From the NCBI GenBank assembly GCA_016870155.1, contig VGCE01000001.1, forward strand, positions 332,001-396,000: a stretch of DNA of 64,000 bases, given 5' to 3'. The notes beneath the pieces were generated by a model. It had not been told where the DNA came from. It saw only the letters and a program-made list of their open reading frames with translations, and ran no database searches. Source of the DNA: Actinomycetota bacterium. Lineage in GTDB: Bacteria; Actinomycetota; Thermoleophilia; Miltoncostaeales; Miltoncostaeaceae. Positions 24,089-50,682 of this stretch are shown here, one piece after another (positions within the stretch are counted from its first letter, which is position 1; every line of letters begins with the position of its first letter). Position numbers and translations under genes: made by a program.

Positions 24089-25606
24089 TCAGTCCTCCGT
24101 GCAGTGCCCGGACCCCGCCCGGGCGATGGTTCCTGCGGCGACGAGACGCCCCCCGTCGTAGAGGGCCGCGGTCTGCCCCGGGGCAACGGCCTCGGCGGCG
24201 TCCTCGAGCACCACCTCCCCGGTTCCATCGCCCGTGACGAGCAGATGGCCCCGGAGGGGTCGCCCATGATGCCGGATTCGCACGTCGAGTGCGCGATCGG
24301 GCACGTCGTGGATGATGAGCTGCTCGAGCGCGAACGCCGTGCGGCCCAAGCGAGGCCGCGGACCCACCACCACCTCGTTGCGCGCGGCGTCCGTGGCCAG
24401 CACGTAGACGGGATCCCCCGCCGCCACGCCGAGTCCGCGGCGCTGGCCCACCGTGTAGCGCCAGAAGCCCTCATGCGTGCCCACCTCGTTGCCCTGCTGG
24501 TCAACGATGCGCCCGGGCCGCGGCGCCAGCCCCGAGTAGCGCTCGAGGAACGGCCCGTAGCCCCCCTGGCCCACGAAGCAGACGTCCTGGCTCTCCACGG
24601 CGTCAGCCGCGGGAAGCCCCCGATGGGCCGCGATGGCGCGAACCTCGTCCTTGGTGAGCTCGCCCAGCGGCAGCAGGAGCCGGTCGAGCATGCCCGGGTC
24701 GAGCCGCGCGAGCATGTACGACTGATCCTTGGATGCATCGCGCGCCGCGCCGAGGACGCGGGTGAGTGTCACCGAAGGGTGACTGTCACCGGGCTTCGGG
24801 TGACTGTCACCGGGGTCGAGCACCCGCGCATAGTGCCCGGTGGCAAGCCACCGGGCACCGAGCAGCGCGGCGGCTTCGGAGAGGATCCGGAAGCGCACCT
24901 CGCCGTTGCAGGTGATGCACGGGTTCGGGGTGAGCCCCTCGGCGTAGCCGCGTGCGAAGGAATCCACCACCTCGCGGCGGAAGCGCTCGGCGGCATCGAT
25001 GGTGAGGTGCGGAATGCCCAGCACCGCGCAGGTCTCGCGCGCCAGGCGCACGGTCTCGGGAGCGCAGCACGACCGCTCGGCGCGTGCGGCCACGGGGTCA
25101 TGCCATAGGCGCATGGTCACGCCCACCACGTCGAGCCCCTGCTCGGCCAGCAGCAGCGCCGCCACGGCGCTGTCCACCCCGCCGCTCATGGCCACTGCCA
25201 CCCGGTCGGCGCGCAGGGCGATGCCCCCGTCGCCGAGGCGCGCCCCGAACCACTGCTCGAGCGCGCCTGCCGCGGCGTCGGCGACGATCTCGGCGCCGTG
25301 GCGCCGCTCGGGGCCCAGGCCTCCGAGCTCTCGATCGAGCGATGTCGCCGACACCCGCAGGGCATCATCCAGCGACGCGCCGACGAGCGCCGCGCAGGCG
25401 GCGGATGCCGCCGCGGTGGTGGCACCGCAACCGCGCACCCGGAAGCCCGCATCGGCGACATGGCCGTCGTGGACGCGGATCTCGATCACCGCGACGTCGC
25501 CGCAGTCCTCGGCGCCGGCCTCGCCGCGGACGTCGGGCGCGGACAGCCCGCCCGCCCCCACGGGGGCGGCAAGATGGCGCATCACCTCAGGCGGATACGG
25601 CGGCAT
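24089..25606 (-). CDS. mnmA: tRNA 2-thiouridine(34) synthase MnmA with N-terminal IscU/NifU-like domain
   Basis: A 505-aa fusion. Residues 1-120 match the IscU/NifU_N scaffold fold, with Cys35 (EDCGDV) and Cys60 (VRGCGATTAAA) in place. The third ligand, normally Cys after His in KxHCS, is Gly104 (RRHGAE), so classical Fe-S assembly is doubtful. Residues 131-505 are MnmA: PP-loop AMSGGVDSAV (139-148), catalytic cysteines in TPNPCITCNGEVRF and ESQDVCFVG, GHYARV, KDQSYML, then the C-terminal beta barrel. It thiolates U34 of Lys, Glu and Gln tRNAs. Residues about 266-282 are encoded by a palindromic repeat (see separate entry). ATG 25606 lies 6 nt from a TAGCGT box (25618-25613). It is the first gene of the run to aroE. 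Confidence 0.92.
   Translation of the reverse strand: MPPYPPEVMRHLAAPVGAGGLSAPDVRGEAGAEDCGDVAVIEIRVHDGHVADAGFRVRGCGATTAAASAACAALVGASLDDALRVSATSLDRELGGLGPERRHGAEIVADAAAGALEQWFGARLGDGGIALRADRVAVAMSGGVDSAVAALLLAEQGLDVVGVTMRLWHDPVAARAERSCCAPETVRLARETCAVLGIPHLTIDAAERFRREVVDSFARGYAEGLTPNPCITCNGEVRFRILSEAAALLGARWLATGHYARVLDPGDSHPKPGDSHPSVTLTRVLGAARDASKDQSYMLARLDPGMLDRLLLPLGELTKDEVRAIAAHRGLPAADAVESQDVCFVGQGGYGPFLERYSGLAPRPGRIVDQQGNEVGTHEGFWRYTVGQRRGLGVAAGDPVYVLATDAARNEVVVGPRPRLGRTAFALEQLIIHDVPDRALDVRIRHHGRPLRGHLLVTGDGTGEVVLEDAAEAVAPGQTAALYDGGRLVAAGTIARAGSGHCTED
24761..24811. repeat. three tandem 13-bp palindromes inside mnmA
   Basis: GGTGAGTGTCACC (24761-24773), GGTGACTGTCACC (24778-24790) and GGTGACTGTCACC (24799-24811), separated by 4 and 8 nt. 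Copies 2 and 3 are perfect palindromes around a central T. The array stays in frame and encodes PGDSHPKPGDSHPS in a surface-loop position of MnmA between GHYARV and the KDQSYM motif. Confidence 0.85.
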
Positions 25607-36557: not shown

Positions 36558-37832
36558 GTGAACGCCCGCGCGCTGCTGCGCAACCCCGACGTGGCGCGCC
36601 TGCTGGGCGCGCAGTTGCTGAGCACCCTCACCTTCGGCGTGGTGGCCGCCGCGCTGGGGTGGCAGGCGTTCCAGCGCACGGGCAGCCCGCTGACCCTGGG
36701 GCTCATCGGGCTCGCGGAGTTCCTCCCGGCGCTCATCTTCGCTCTGCCCGCAGGGCAGATGGCCGATCGGCTCGACCGCCGGGTAGTGACGGCCCTCGGC
36801 ATGGGCATCGTGGTTCTGATGGCGCTCGGGCTGCTGGCCGACGCCGCGGCGGGCGACGACTCGGCCCTTCCGCTGTACTTCCTCGCCGCCGGCCTGGGAG
36901 TGGGGAGGTCGTTCTCGAACGCCGCCTTCACCCCCATGCTGGCGGCGGCGGTGACGGCAGCCGACCTGCCACGCACCATGGCGCTCTCGTCGTCCACGTG
37001 GCAGGGCGCGCTCATCTTCGGGCCCTTCCTGGGCGGCCTCCTCCAGGCCTGGGGCAACGTGCCGCCGTATGCATTCGCCGCGCTGCTCGATGTCGTGGCC
37101 GTGCTGCTGATCGTGGGCGTCACCCGACGAGTGGGCACCGAGCATCGCCTCGAGCTCACAGGGCCGCCCACCATGCGCGACGCCACCGCGGGCCTGCGGC
37201 TCATCCGCCACACGCCGGCACTGCTCGGGGCCATCAGTCTCGACCTCGTGGCCGTGCTGTTCGGCGGTGCCACGGCGCTGCTGCCCATCATCGCGAGCGA
37301 GATACTCGACGTGGGGGCCGTGGGCTACGGCGTGCTGCGCGCCGCGCCGGGAATCGGAGCGGTGGCCGTGGGGCTGGCGCTGGCCAGCCGGCCCATACGA
37401 CGCCGCGTAGGGCCGGTGCTGCTCGTCGCCGTGGCCGGGTTCGGGGTGTTCACGATCGTGCTCGGCATCTCCACGGCCTACTGGCTCACGTTCGTGGCCC
37501 TGCTGCTGCTCTCGGGCAGCGACATGGTGAGCGTGTACATCAGGTCCACCCTCACGCCGCTGCTCACGCCGGCCAAGCTGCGAGGCCGCGTGGTGGCCGT
37601 AGAGCGGGTCTTCGTAGGTGCCTCCAACGAGCTCGGCGCCTTCGAAAGCGGAGTGCTCGCCCAGTTCATCGGCACGGTTGGGGCCATCGTGGTGGGCGGC
37701 GCGATGTCCATCGCGGCCGCCGGCCTCTGGGCGATGTTCTTCCCGGGGCTCCGGAGCATCAACCGCTTCGAGGACATCACCCCGGGCAAGGACCCGGACG
37801 CGGGCAGGAGAACCCCGGTGTCAGGCACTTAA
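36558..37832 (+). CDS. MFS transporter (EntS-like)
   Basis: A 424-aa major facilitator with about 10-12 hydrophobic segments. The N-terminal half has the loop motif GQMADRLDRRVV (MFS motif A variant) and FLPALIFALPAG; the second half resembles enterobactin-exporter-type MFS proteins (SSSTWQGALIFGPFLGG, RSTLTPLLTPAKLRGRVVAVERVF). The likely role is export of a small molecule; substrate unknown. GTG 36558 is assigned because the hydrophobic core follows directly; TAGCCG is adjacent but too close to be a normal -10. The last codons (PVSGT and stop) come from the left arm of a large palindrome. Confidence 0.85.
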   Translation: MNARALLRNPDVARLLGAQLLSTLTFGVVAAALGWQAFQRTGSPLTLGLIGLAEFLPALIFALPAGQMADRLDRRVVTALGMGIVVLMALGLLADAAAGDDSALPLYFLAAGLGVGRSFSNAAFTPMLAAAVTAADLPRTMALSSSTWQGALIFGPFLGGLLQAWGNVPPYAFAALLDVVAVLLIVGVTRRVGTEHRLELTGPPTMRDATAGLRLIRHTPALLGAISLDLVAVLFGGATALLPIIASEILDVGAVGYGVLRAAPGIGAVAVGLALASRPIRRRVGPVLLVAVAGFGVFTIVLGISTAYWLTFVALLLLSGSDMVSVYIRSTLTPLLTPAKLRGRVVAVERVFVGASNELGAFESGVLAQFIGTVGAIVVGGAMSIAAAGLWAMFFPGLRSINRFEDITPGKDPDAGRRTPVSGT

Positions 37833-37892
37833 CCGTTCGGGGCCGTAACCGTCCGTGGCCGCGCCCGAACGGTTAAGTGCCTGACACCGGGG
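37813..37892. repeat. 29-bp perfect inverted repeat shared with dnaE2, supplying stop codons
   Basis: The arms 37813-37841 and 37864-37892 are perfect complements (29 bp) around a 22-nt GC-rich spacer. The core GGTGTCAGGCACTTAACCG recurs at 47566-47584 inside dnaE2. The left arm provides the TAA of the MFS gene (37830-37832) and the right arm the TAA of the minus-strand remnant (37875-37873); both proteins therefore end in TPVSGT. The structure would also be a strong bidirectional terminator. Confidence 0.92.
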
Positions 37893-38190
37893 TGAGGGCC
37901 GGTCGGATGAGCGCGGCCGTGCGCGCAGGGTCCTCGCGCAGGAAGAAGTGCCCACCCTGGTCCACGCGCACGATCTCGAAGCGGTGCCCACAGGCCTCCA
38001 CCAGCTCGGGTGCCAAAAGGCAGCGCGCGGCACACGCGGTGACCGAGAGCCCAGGCCCTCTGCGCGCCCTAGCGCGGCGGCCATGTCCCACGCCAGCCGG
38101 CCCGCCGCATCGGGCGCGATGCGCGGGTGCGTGTGCATGAACGTGAGCCCGTCGAGCGCCACCACCCTGCAGACCCGCATGCCCACCGCA
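37873..38190 (-). pseudogene. alpha/beta-hydrolase or thioesterase C-terminal remnant
   Basis: A degenerate C-terminal fragment spread over two frames. The upper part (about 38190-38060) reads VCRVVALDGLTFMHTHPRIA, then DAAGRLAWDMAAALGRAEGLG. After a frameshift near 38060 it continues LSVTACAARCLLAPELVEA, then RFEIVRVDQGGHFFLREDPA. The GGHFFL and following helix look like the C-terminal histidine region of thioesterases or alpha/beta hydrolases. The end (TPVSGT, stop) is created by the palindrome. No intact start or nucleophile elbow is present. The family assignment is weak. Confidence 0.5.
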
Positions 38191-39300
38191 CCGGCCCCAC
38201 GCCCGCGGCCTGGTTCCACGCCGGCTCCTCCGCATGGCGCAGGAAGCCCGGCCACATGGTGCCGCCCACGGCGGTGACGCCCGGCGACGCGGCCAGCCAG
38301 TTGACCGACGCCTGCCCCGGCAGCCCGTAGCTCGGGAACAGGGCGGGGCATGTCGTGGCCGGCGGGCCCATCGACCCCATGTCGCCGCTTGCAACGATCG
38401 CGATGGGCCCCGACGCCGCCAGCACGGCCATTCCATGCTGGTACCGGACCTACCCGGCCGGTGGGGGTGTCGCATCACCCGGGGCCTGCACCTCGCTCCC
38501 GGCGTGGCTGATGCCCACCGCTGACAGGCAGGGCAGGGCGACCGCCTATTCGAGGAAGTCCACGATCCACATGGCGGACATCGGCGACACGTTGATGACC
38601 ACCGCGCGCGTGCCCGCCGGCGCCAGCGTCGACAGCCACTGGGCGTCGAGGTGGGCCTCCCCGTTGGCCGTGGTGCCCTCCAGCGTAGGCGCACCCGGCA
38701 GGTTCACCTGGTCCGCCTCGATGGTGCCGGGCGGGAACCGGCAATCAGCCTGATAGCGCGCGACGTCGGCGGGCAGGTAGTTCTCGCCCATCTCGGGCAC
38801 GGCGATCGACTGCTGCGGGTACGCCGTGCCGGACCCGATTCGATCGAACCCATACGCCTGCGCCACGCCGAGCGGCGTGACGGGCTCGCCGCACCCCAGG
38901 GCGCGCATGTCCATCGCAGGACCGCCGGCGCAGCCCTGCAGCACGGGCACCGCATCCACCTGCGACTCGCGCGCCGCCCGCGCCGCGGGGCGCCGCGTGC
39001 TGGTGCCGCGCACAGGCGGAGACACACGGCTGAGCCCTGCGATCGACGTGGCCTACCGGCGCAGCGCCGGCGGAACGCGCAGCGGCCGCGACCCCGCGGT
39101 GGTCGTGCCGCAGACCGATCGACACGCTCACGCCGCGGGCAGCATCGGCGGGGCGCAACCGCGTGGCGCCGGTCCGGTGCGGGTCGGCCGTCGGCACTCC
39201 GGCGCCCACGCCGCCCGCCGCGGCGGTGCCCGCCCCCACCCACAGCGCTGCGCCCGCGAGGGCAGTGACCGGGGCTGCGGCGAGGCGTCGGGGCTCGTCT
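38191..39300 (-). pseudogene. sedolisin (S53) serine-carboxyl peptidase pseudogene
   Basis: A decayed secreted S53 protease. A signal-like stretch (RRLAAAPVTALAGAALWVGA, about 39290-39230) and prodomain (GVSVSIGLRHDH) are in one frame. The catalytic domain start (TPLGVAQAYGFDRIG, QQSIAVPEMGENYLPADVARY, then the Glu/Asp pair in NGEAHLDAQWL) is in another. It then meets TAG at 38548-38546 and a second TAG at 38452-38450 in the same frame, and goes on with IAIVASGDMGS (oxyanion Asp) and PALFPSYGLPG, then VTAVGGTMW. The part with the catalytic Ser (GTSxxxP) is missing. At least one frameshift, two stops and a C-terminal deletion make it non-functional. Exact ends are approximate. Confidence 0.78.
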
Positions 39301-47079: not shown

Positions 47080-47309
47080 GCGGCCCGGAGCCCGCCCGCG
47101 TGATCGCCTCGCCCGGGGGTGCGCCGCATGCCGTGATCACGGGCGGCAGGCGACGCCTGGTGGTGGCCGTGCGCGACTCCTGGCGCGTGCAGGACCGCTG
47201 GTGGACCGACGACCCGGTGGACCGCGCGTACTTCGACGTGGTCATCGAGCCGGGCCGGGTGGCCCTGGTGTACCGCGAGGCGTCCGGTGACTGGTTCATA
47301 CATGGCTAG
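47052..47309 (+). CDS. DUF6504-like small protein of the mutasome cluster
   Basis: An 85-aa protein with SWRVQDRWWTDDPVDRAYFDVVIEP and a last segment VALVYREASGDWFIHG, characteristic of the small actinobacterial protein coded between imuB and dnaE2 or fused to imuB. The role is unknown; context suggests part of the SOS translesion complex. ATG 47052 overlaps the end of imuB and its stop overlaps dnaE2 by 8 nt. Confidence 0.8.
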   Translation: MGTRSIRGLGGPEPARVIASPGGAPHAVITGGRRRLVVAVRDSWRVQDRWWTDDPVDRAYFDVVIEPGRVALVYREASGDWFIHG

Positions 47310-50300
47310 CCCGCCCTACGTGGAGCTGCACGCCCATTCGGCGTTCAGCTTCCTCGACGGCGCGTCGCTGCCCGCCGAGATGGCCGAGCGCGCCGCCCAG
47401 CTGGACCACGAGGCGCTGGCCCTCACCGACCACGACGGCCTCTGCGGATCGCTGGAGTTCGCCCACGCCGCAGCGGCGGCGGGAGTGCGCCCGATAACGG
47501 GAGCGGAACTGACGGTGACCGCGGCGGCGGGATCGGGAGCGGGAGCGGGAGCGGATCCCTACCCCGGTGTCAGGCACTTAACCGACAGTGCCAGACACCT
47601 GGCCCCGCTGCACCTGCCCCCGCTGGCCATCAGGCACCTGACCCTGCTGGCAATGGATGCGCGGGGGTACGCCAACCTCTGCCGGCTCATCACCATGGCC
47701 CATGCGCACACGCGCGATGCGCCCGACCGGCGGGCCGGTGATCCCCTGCTGCCGCTGGACGCCCTCGAGGTGCACAGCGAGGGGCTCGCATGCCTGTCGG
47801 GGTGCGCGCGCCACGGGCTGGTGGCGGCACCGCTCGCGGCGGGCAGGCGCGCCGAGGCCGAGGCCATGCTCAGGCGTCTGGTGGGAATCTTCGGGCCCGG
47901 CCGCACGTGGGTGGAGATCCAGCGCCCGGGGCTGCGCGGCGACCTGGCGCTGGCCCGGGGGCTGGAGCAGCTGGCCGACCACGTGGGCGTGCCCGCGGTG
48001 GCCACCGGCGACGTGCACGCCCACGTGCCGCGCCGGGCATTCCTGCAGGACGCCCTGGTGGCCGTGCGGCACCGGCTCACCCTCGACGCATCGGAGGAGA
48101 TGCGCCGCGGCAACCGACAGGCGGTGCTGGTGCCGCCGCACGAGATGGCCCGCCGCCTGCGCGATCACCCCGCGGCCGTGGCCGAGACCCTGCGCCTGGC
48201 CGAGATGATCGGGTTCGACCTCACCCGCGACATGGGCTACCGCTTCCCCGACTTCGCATCGGGGCACCCCGGCGAGGACGCCGACGGCGCGCTGGCGCGC
48301 ATCTGCGCGGCCGAGGCCCGTCGCCGCTACCCCGACGGCCCGCAGCGGCACGAGGCCCTGGCGCGGCTCGACGAGGAACTCGGGCTCATCCGCTACCACG
48401 GCCTCTCGGGGTTCTTCCTGCTGCACCGGGACATCCTCGAGATCGCCCGCGAGGTGGCGCTGCGGGTGCGGCCCGAGGGATCGGCCCGCCGCGCCCTTCC
48501 GCCGGGCCGCGGCCGCGGGTCATCCGTGGGATCGATCGTCTGCTACCTCACCGGGCTCTCGCACATCGACCCCATCGAGAGCGGGCTGTTCCTCGGGCGC
48601 TTCCTCAACCGGGACATCCGATCGGTGCCCGACATCGACCTGGACTTCCCCCGGGATGTGCGCGCGGGCCTCATCGAGGAGGTCGTGCGCCGCTACGGCT
48701 CAGACCACGCGGCGCTGGTGGCGGCATTCCCCACCTTCCGCGCCCGCATGGCGATACGCGAGATCGGCGGCGCCCTGGCCCTGCCCCCCGCCGACATCGA
48801 GCGCCTCTCGCGCCTGGCCGACGGCTGGTCGTCGGCGGAGGCGGTGGAGGACGAGATACGCCGCATGCCGGGGGGTGAGGACCGCCTGCGCTCACGCCGG
48901 TGGCGGGCGCTGGCCATGCTGGCCAAGGAGGCCGCCGGGCTGCCCCGCCACCTCTCGCAGCACCCGGGCGGCATGATCGTGAGCGCCACGCCGCTGGTGG
49001 AGCTGGTGCCCGTGGTGCCCGCGGCGTTCCCCGGTCGGCAGATCTGCCAGTGGGACAAGGACTCCTGCGCGGACGCCGGCTTCGTGAAGATCGACCTGCT
49101 CGGGCTGGGGATGCTGAGCGCCGTGGAGGACTGCCTCGACCTCATCGCCCGCGAGCACGGCAGCGCGCCCGACCTCTCGCGCATCGGGTTCGACGACCCC
49201 GCGGTGTACGCGGAGATCCAGGATGCCGACACCGTGGGCGTGTTCCAGATCGAGAGCCGCGCGCAGATGCAGAGCCTGCTGCAGACCCGGCCCGAGAACC
49301 TCGACGACCTCACGGTGCAGGTGGCGCTGATCCGCCCGGGCCCGGTGAGCGGCGGCGCCGTGCACCCCTACGTGCGCCATCGCCGCGCGCGGCGCCACGA
49401 CCCGGCGTTCCGGCCGCCATACGACCACCCCCTGCTGGAGCCCGCGCTCGAGGAAACCCTGGGCGTGGTGGTGTTCCAGGAGCAGGTGCTCGAGGTGTCG
49501 ATGGCGCTGGCGGGATTCAGCGCCGGCGAGGCCGAGGACCTGCGCCGGGCCATGAGCCGCAAGCGCAGCCGCGACGCCATGCTGCGCATGTGGCAGCGCT
49601 TCCTCGCCGGGGCGCGCGAGCGAGGCGTGCCCGACGAGGTCACCCGCACGGTGTTCACCAAGCTCATCGGGTTCTCCAACTTCGGCTTCCCCAAGGCGCA
49701 CTCGGCCGCGTTCGCCGTGCTGGCCTACCAGAGCGCGTGGCTGAGGAGGCACCACCCCGCGGAGTTCCTGGCCGCGCTCATCAACGCCCAGCCCATGGGC
49801 TTCTACCCCCCGGCCAGCCTGGTGAGGGACGCCGGGAGGCGCGGCGTGCGCACCCTGCGCGCGTGCATCCGGCTGTCAGGCGTGCAGTGCACGGTCGACG
49901 CCGGCCGGGTGCGACTGGGGCTCGGCATGGTGCGCGGGCTGGGGGACGGCGGCGCGGCGCGCCTGGTGGCCGAGCGCGACGTCCACGGGCACTTCACGGG
50001 CGCGGCCGACCTGGTGGCGCGCACCGGCCTTCGCCCCGAGCAGGTGGCGTGGCTCGCGCGCGCCGGCGCGCTGGACGCCTTCGGGGTTCCCGAGCGCGAG
50101 CTGCTGTGGCAGGCCGGCACCCTCGCCCGCCCGCGGCGGGTGGCCGGCGGCGCGGGGGAGCAGATGCCCCTGCCCATCGACCCGGCCATGGCCCCGGCGC
50201 TGCCCGAGCCCGACCGCATCGATCGGGTCATCGCCGAGTACGAGGCCACGGGGGTATCCACCGGGTGGCACCTGATGACCCTCGTGCGGCCGGCCCTGCC

Positions 50301-50682
50301 CACGGGAACCCTCACCGCCCAGGCCCTGCGCGAGGCCCGGCACGGCCGCGAGGTGACCGTGGCCGGAATGGTGGTGGCCCGCCAGCGCCCCGCCACCGCC
50401 GGGGGCATCGTGTTCCTGCTGCTCGAGGACGAGACCGGCCCCGTGAACGTGATCGTGCGCCCCGACCTCTACGAGCAGCACCGCGCGCTGGTGCGCGCCG
50501 ACCCCCTGCTCATCATCACGGGGCGCCTCGAGCGCCGCGACCGCGTGGTGAACGTGCTGGCCCGCCACATCGAGGCCGCGCGGCTTCCGGCCCGCGACCC
50601 CATCCCCCTCGAAGAGCCCGACGACGCCCGCGTGCGGGGTGCCGTCCCGGCCGCCCAGAACTTCGCGCAGGGGCGGCGGTGA
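47302..50682 (+). CDS. dnaE2: error-prone DNA polymerase DnaE2
   Basis: A 1126-aa C-family polymerase alpha subunit of the DnaE2 (ImuC) type. An N-terminal PHP domain (PYVELHAHSAFSFLDGAS, LTDHDGLCG) leads to the polymerase domain with GRGRGSSVGSIVCYLTGLSHIDP as a run and catalytic PDIDLDFPRD (about 443-452), then FVKIDLLGLGML, GVVVFQEQVLEVSM, SNFGFPKAHSAAF, helix-hairpin-helix and an OB domain (VTVAGMVVARQRPATAGG). It performs translesion synthesis with ImuB. Residues about 77-115 hold a Gly/Ala repeat and a palindromic element not expected in the family (see the repeat entry). ATG 47302 has the family-typical start. Confidence 0.95.
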   Translation: MASPPYVELHAHSAFSFLDGASLPAEMAERAAQLDHEALALTDHDGLCGSLEFAHAAAAAGVRPITGAELTVTAAAGSGAGAGADPYPGVRHLTDSARHLAPLHLPPLAIRHLTLLAMDARGYANLCRLITMAHAHTRDAPDRRAGDPLLPLDALEVHSEGLACLSGCARHGLVAAPLAAGRRAEAEAMLRRLVGIFGPGRTWVEIQRPGLRGDLALARGLEQLADHVGVPAVATGDVHAHVPRRAFLQDALVAVRHRLTLDASEEMRRGNRQAVLVPPHEMARRLRDHPAAVAETLRLAEMIGFDLTRDMGYRFPDFASGHPGEDADGALARICAAEARRRYPDGPQRHEALARLDEELGLIRYHGLSGFFLLHRDILEIAREVALRVRPEGSARRALPPGRGRGSSVGSIVCYLTGLSHIDPIESGLFLGRFLNRDIRSVPDIDLDFPRDVRAGLIEEVVRRYGSDHAALVAAFPTFRARMAIREIGGALALPPADIERLSRLADGWSSAEAVEDEIRRMPGGEDRLRSRRWRALAMLAKEAAGLPRHLSQHPGGMIVSATPLVELVPVVPAAFPGRQICQWDKDSCADAGFVKIDLLGLGMLSAVEDCLDLIAREHGSAPDLSRIGFDDPAVYAEIQDADTVGVFQIESRAQMQSLLQTRPENLDDLTVQVALIRPGPVSGGAVHPYVRHRRARRHDPAFRPPYDHPLLEPALEETLGVVVFQEQVLEVSMALAGFSAGEAEDLRRAMSRKRSRDAMLRMWQRFLAGARERGVPDEVTRTVFTKLIGFSNFGFPKAHSAAFAVLAYQSAWLRRHHPAEFLAALINAQPMGFYPPASLVRDAGRRGVRTLRACIRLSGVQCTVDAGRVRLGLGMVRGLGDGGAARLVAERDVHGHFTGAADLVARTGLRPEQVAWLARAGALDAFGVPERELLWQAGTLARPRRVAGGAGEQMPLPIDPAMAPALPEPDRIDRVIAEYEATGVSTGWHLMTLVRPALPTGTLTAQALREARHGREVTVAGMVVARQRPATAGGIVFLLLEDETGPVNVIVRPDLYEQHRALVRADPLLIITGRLERRDRVVNVLARHIEAARLPARDPIPLEEPDDARVRGAVPAAQNFAQGRR
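47531..47640. repeat. GGGAGC tandem repeat and REP-like palindrome inside dnaE2
   Basis: GGGATC/GGGAGC hexamers (47531-47556, coding GSGAGAGAD) are followed by a 23-bp match (47562-47584) to the arms of the palindrome at 37813-37892, here forming an imperfect hairpin: GGTGTCAGGCACT, an 8-nt loop, AGTGCCAGACACC (47566-47599). A weaker related sequence, CAGGCACCTGACC, is at 47631-47643. All stays in frame, adding roughly 35 residues between the PHP strand ELTVTAA and HLTLLAMD. Confidence 0.85.

Follow-up and report, generated by a model that had tools for sequence, protein, structure and literature searches.

Earlier work has described RAYT-linked doublets of palindromic repeats, REPs that provide neighboring genes with stop codons, REPs located within genes, and TIR versions of such repeats that lack the tag (PMC2817692, PMC3116915, PMC3733652). 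In TIRtrons, or TIRYT elements, a RAYT-like gene lies within long inverted repeats that are not GTAG-tagged REPs, as far as the account drawn on here goes (Di Nocera et al. 2013, PMC3733652). GTAG REPs themselves, in the part of that account that deals with them, supply TAG stops to flanking genes and occur in DNA-repair genes, including dnaE2 of other bacteria (PMC3733652).

Here, we analyzed a palindrome at the shared end of two convergent frames in a 64,000-nt stretch of an Actinomycetota genome (hereafter the window). The ends that it shares with a RAYT gene, its dispersed copies, the presence of both filled and empty sites among sister species, and a position at gene 3′ ends together point to a RAYT-linked mobile element. 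Most probably (about 85%), judging from sequence comparisons, it is a non-autonomous RAYT-associated element of the REPIN or TIR type without the usual GTAG tag, which acts as a stop donor at gene ends. Its two inverted arms would fold into a hairpin, the probable substrate of RAYT1, an HUH/Y1 transposase.

The palindrome and its adjoining genes

The initial annotation had described perfect arms of 29 bp around a 22-nt spacer; the spacer and the perfection held, while each arm proved 1 base longer (Table 1). The left arm reads ACCCCGGTGTCAGGCACTTAACCGTTCGGG, and the right arm is its reverse complement. As had been annotated, both adjoining frames end in TPVSGT-TAA, and each TAA lies within the arm that the frame enters. 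Each arm holds the self-complementary TTAA and therefore offers TAA on both strands. A consensus element closes 2 of the 3 frames per strand when its spacer is 10 or 25 nt long, and all 3 when it is 12 nt long. The 19-mer core GGTGTCAGGCACTTAACCG has 3 exact matches in the window, with 0 expected from 100 shuffles.

The alpha/beta-hydrolase gene on the minus strand is an intact ORF in the relatives G011, G014, G016, and G005, and is broken in the genome of the window (G000). No Pfam domain was found in the broken minus-strand frames. One of these, at 38546-39025 within the broken stretch (37873-39025), was read by eye as a fragment of a subtilisin/S53-type peptidase; it too had no Pfam match.

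Table 1. Coordinates, in the window, of the palindrome, its adjoining genes and the dnaE2 insertion.
Feature	Position	Strand	Remarks
Family-1 short element	37812..37893	.	82 bp; 2 inverted arms and spacer
Left arm	37812..37841	+	30 bp; contains the MFS stop (TAA, 37830-37832)
Spacer	37842..37863	.	22 nt; length and sequence unlike the orthologous G011 and G014 copies
Right arm	37864..37893	-	30 bp; contains the minus-strand stop (TAA, 37873-37875)
MFS transporter gene	36558..37832	+	Pfam MFS_3, MFS_1; own TGA lost, the element providing the final codons and the stop
Frame with 3′ part of broken alpha/beta-hydrolase gene	37873..38694	-	C-terminus ALTPVSGT and stop element-encoded, as in 3 sister species
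dnaE2	47287..50682	+	PHP and DNA pol III alpha domains; bears in-frame insertion
Family-1 arm, then degenerate second arm core	47561..47599	+	In-frame in dnaE2 (PGVRHLT)

Distribution of family-1 copies

The genome of the window (1.81 Mb in 16 contigs, 97.8% complete) contains 50 matches to the core at up to 2 mismatches, 25 on each strand, against 0 for the reversed core in the same 1.81 Mb. With the window shuffles, this count rules out a coincidental palindrome. The 50 arm matches make up 28 sites (21 short inverted pairs, 1 pair around a RAYT gene, 1 wide pair, and 5 single or degenerate arms), in keeping with the dispersed element that had been proposed. Many of the short pairs have spacers of 10, 12, or 25 nt, and the others of up to 50 nt. 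Family-1 arms start with ACCCCGGTG and finish with CTTAACCG; neither GTAG nor a related tetranucleotide tag was found at the palindrome base of these arms. In the wide pair (L015, 1794-2780), 2 arms lie about 1 kb apart around a 227-aa ORF that was named by eye as uracil-DNA-glycosylase-like, and this is probably not a gene capture but a chance neighborhood of 2 single arms.

The family-1 core is abundant in the sister species G005, G007, G011, G014, G015, and G016; the other species of the genus have few copies or none. Outside the genus, it matched in only 1 of 81 genomes, with 1 match per strand at 2 mismatches. In G015, 79 family-1 arms of the GGTGCC form were observed, often in direct tandem arrays where contigs stop, which suggests that the repeats interrupted the assembly.

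For the gene context, mechanical gene calls came from a simple hexamer model applied solely to the loci around the sites, and 1 degenerate single arm (L036) was left out of the counts. By this model, 26 of the 27 assessed sites are intergenic: 14 convergent, 12 tandem, and 0 divergent, against 7, 50, and 6 among the intergenic regions of the window (P = 5e-5; P = 6e-4 with three uncertain sites dropped). A gene 3′ end lies within about 20 bp of most sites. The annotated placement near gene ends is thus borne out by these contexts; such placement behind stop codons may reflect selection against gene-breaking insertions.

Filled and empty sites

The MFS site is empty in 9 species (G019, G012, G005, G013, G010, G004, G017, G003, and G018), and at several of these empty sites the stops of the 2 genes overlap as CTAG. 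It is filled in 4 species: G000, G011, G014, and G016, the copy in the last being without most of its left arm. At an empty site (G019), the hydrolase ends in EALAA-stop. At filled sites with intact frames, it ends in ALIPVSGT (G014), ALTPVPGT (G016), or ALTPVSGT (G011), followed by the stop. In G000, where the gene is broken upstream, the element-encoded end was kept, and all 4 filled species end in PV[S/P]GT-TAA. The native TGA of the MFS gene was kept in G011, G014, and G016, and the TAA of the element is used only in G000. There, the stretch TGATGAGGAG (G011 form) reads GGCAGGAG; the native TGA is lost, and the MFS frame therefore runs into the TAA of the element.

Comparing empty with filled orthologous sites, intact hydrolase frames included, thus demonstrates the stop donation that had been annotated. 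By this comparison, donation took 2 steps: the hydrolase stop was replaced at or after insertion, and the MFS back-up came into use after that gene lost its own stop. An insertion at a gene 3′ end can accordingly either replace the stop, as for the hydrolase, or back up a native stop that is later lost, as for the MFS gene.

The age of the sites was compared with the 28 sites of G000 as the starting set. Of these, 23 match an arm-bearing site in at least 1 of G007, G011, G014, and G016; most insertions therefore predate those species, and recent movement is rare. The initial annotation had set against mobility the prospect that only these copies exist, conserved at the same places in relatives. 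Half of this was found: most sites are common to the closest relatives, whereas the insertion at the MFS site is absent from 9 other species of the genus in which that site could be located. At site C6:31799, only G000 has a full element among the species compared. At site C2:149844, G005 and G015 have related elements, G001 and G006 hold remnants, and G019, G016, and G013 have no element. Gains and losses of insertions occur across the genus.

The copy within dnaE2

The 23-bp match that had been reported inside dnaE2 is real (47562-47584). Just after it comes a degenerate second arm core (47588-47599), which reads GTGCCAGACACC and is one mismatch from GTGCCTGACACC. The insertion point lies in the PHP domain, between GAELTV and HLTLLA (window 47515-47640 and 16 sister genomes, L176-L191). 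The loop at this point is family 1 in G000 and G005, in the same reading frame; it is GGTGACAGTCACC in G007, G011, G014, and G016, with related sequence in G019 and G009, and GGGGACAGTCCCC in G010 and G015, with related sequence in G001, G006, and G013. None of these palindromes was found in the loop of G012, G002, G003, or G018. The dnaE2 frame stays open in all species compared, and the PHP loop may be a recurrent landing site, or a tolerated one, for in-frame palindromes of several families.

A Y1 transposase between family-1 arms

An IS200/IS605-like (RAYT) transposase, which the initial annotation had advised looking for, was found in the same genome, bounded by the palindrome's own arms. 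RAYT1 is a 190-aa Y1 transposase (C3:216140-216712, minus strand) within the site C3:216123-216831, which has identical 23-bp family-1 arms at each end; the gene's own stop is the TAA of one of them. The protein matches Pfam Y1_Tnp (PF01797) above the cut-off and contains the motifs NHVHLL and RYIARNP. On the NCBIfam model REP_Tyr_transpos it scores 78.6 bits, just below the cut-off of 80, and at the RAYT signature NP(L/V)(R/K)xG it reads NPVEAN. No solved structure matched RAYT1 by sequence, and its nearest named record is from the uncultured actinobacterium LaPlata-b_bin-1680. Among the matches listed, no paper had RAYTs in Actinobacteria as its subject by title.

Between the same 2 genes, the RAYT1 locus is filled in G000, G011, G005, and G012. 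Identity to RAYT1 is 77% in G011, which has the same ends; 61% in G005, whose ends carry GGTGCC; and 55% in G012, where a TAG interrupts the RAYT and the ends differ. The junction is empty in G014, G009, G001, and G006. No family-1 RAYT was found in the draft assemblies of G007 and G014 despite many near-perfect copies; because the relatives are draft assemblies, the apparent lack of a RAYT in G007 and G016 may reflect incomplete sequence. RAYT1 would be the enzyme that moves the family-1 copies.

A second RAYT (RAYT2, at C2:239058) is 44% identical to RAYT1, reads NPVRAG at the signature, scores 91.8 bits on the curated model, and has a different palindrome, GGTGACTGTCACC, on its flanks. Its frame (L045 1340-2140; L061) runs into its own repeat, giving the C-terminus GPVTVTR..., with VTVTG in G015. 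The same second-family palindrome forms a cluster in the window at 24761-24811, with 5 matches at up to 1 mismatch against 0.07 expected. Many further RAYTs of the class also have flanking palindromes of their own.

Uniform arms and changing spacers

In 36 orthologous two-arm pairs, the arms differ by 4.0% (positions 3-16 by about 1%) and the flanks by 11.1%. The spacers of these pairs differ at 23% of aligned positions and contain many gaps; spacers in general are often replaced, in length and sequence, or inverted in place. In the clearest inversion, 25 of 25 bases are identical only after reverse-complementing. The arms also carry species-specific states: GGTGTC in 49 of 50 arms of G000, and GGTGCC in 15 of 17 arms of G005 and all 12 sampled in G015. 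These states hold at the sites common to G000 and G005 and at the ends of their RAYTs.

We read this uniformity as concerted evolution of the arms. It may stem from repeated transposition into old sites, from in-place rewriting, or from host conversion. Under the mobile-element reading, copies re-made from the current master may keep the arms uniform, and the same process may swap and flip the spacers. A more specific proposal, which we put forward only tentatively and consider rather doubtful, is that the RAYT or a palindrome-directed host process rewrites resident copies in place, resetting arms to the master and flipping or replacing spacers, with REPINs evolving in concert at long-inherited positions. 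As a test of such overwriting, spacer turnover was compared with arm quality, and across 57 pairs no significant correlation emerged (rho -0.17, P 0.20).

Alternative explanations

The conservation of arms could also have a cause in the host. Family-1 hairpins might be bidirectional terminators or mRNA-stabilizing structures kept under purifying selection, their mobility past and irrelevant. Convergent and tandem 3′ ends are favored to the exclusion of divergent contexts, the hairpins are very stable (-43 to -78 kcal/mol), most sites are common between species, and arms are far more conserved than flanks, all as this explanation would have it. We nevertheless consider it unlikely. At 18 sites, neither strand has a T-run within the first 12 bases beyond the hairpin, and a canonical intrinsic terminator, in which a U-tract follows a GC-rich hairpin, was rejected. 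The terminator role given in the initial annotation is only putative. A terminator, moreover, requires pairing rather than one fixed arm sequence across sites, base changes specific to a species appear at many common sites together, and the genus has many losses and empty sites. Far less probable still is a classical MITE derived from an insertion sequence of the DDE type. Its short inverted-repeat ends without coding capacity would fit, and some copies resemble internal-deletion derivatives of a transposase unit (AACCAAGCCGCGCGCC in L009, AACCAAGCAGCGCGCC in L018), but the transposase gene between family-1 ends is of the Y1 type, no DDE transposase bounded by family-1 arms was seen, and no target-site duplication was apparent by eye in flanks or empty sites.

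A contender with better prospects, though still short of even odds, leaves the RAYT as merely the founder of the family and assigns both spacer inversion and arm uniformity to host processes on palindromes, namely template switching at hairpins and gene conversion between copies. Chloroplast genomes are known to show loop inversions beside hairpins, and the spacer inversions at orthologous sites fit this pattern. Template switching evens out the 2 arms of one site, however, and does not alone make arms alike between sites, while the arms, at about 25 bp, offer little length for ordinary recombination.

Comparison with known systems

For a RAYT-associated mobile element, the locus amounts to a natural experiment in uncultured actinobacteria, with filled and empty sites, an element-derived stop in 4 species, and the subsequent loss of another native stop in 1 of them. 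With its old positions yet uniform arms, the repeat population lends itself to comparative tests of how REPINs persist, be it through repeated transposition, through rewriting in place, or through selection by the host, and the dnaE2 loop tolerates in-frame palindromes from several families.

Family 1 resembles REPINs and their RAYTs (Bertels and Rainey 2011, PMC3116915; Nunvar et al. 2010, PMC2817692) in its inverted doublets of a palindromic repeat, in a single-copy RAYT between 2 inverted repeat copies, in a RAYT held at one locus between species, and in the pairing of one RAYT with each repeat family. Unlike REPINs, it has no GTAG tag, occupies about 28 sites rather than hundreds, and forms one near-perfect long hairpin from the whole doublet. 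Where GTAG REPs supply TAG, in the description available from PMC3733652, the family-1 stop is a TAA from the TTAA in both arms, backed by an empty-site comparison. Likewise, against the dnaE2 insertions of GTAG REPs in that description, the same dnaE2 loop is here filled by different palindromes per species. The dnaE2 copy also recalls the Rickettsia palindromic elements, as cited in PMC3733652, which are in-frame palindromic inserts in likely functional genes; the likeness is one of description and not of sequence, and most family-1 copies are extragenic, with a cognate transposase present.

The description of TIRtrons fits family 1 best. In the portion of PMC3733652 used for comparison, these have long TIRs, unrelated to GTAG REPs, around a tyrosine transposase gene, repeats dispersed as dimers, and a repeat that overlaps the 3′ end of the transposase gene. 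The motif GGGGWSAS, optional and shared by some TIRs there, is matched at 7 of 8 positions by family-1 arms, which read GGTGTCAG, and is fitted by other palindromes of the genus (GGGGACAG and GGGGTCAG). No description of species-specific arm states or spacer inversion was found in that portion of the TIRtron literature. New here is a TIRtron-type family in little-studied uncultured actinobacteria, dissected with unusual clarity.
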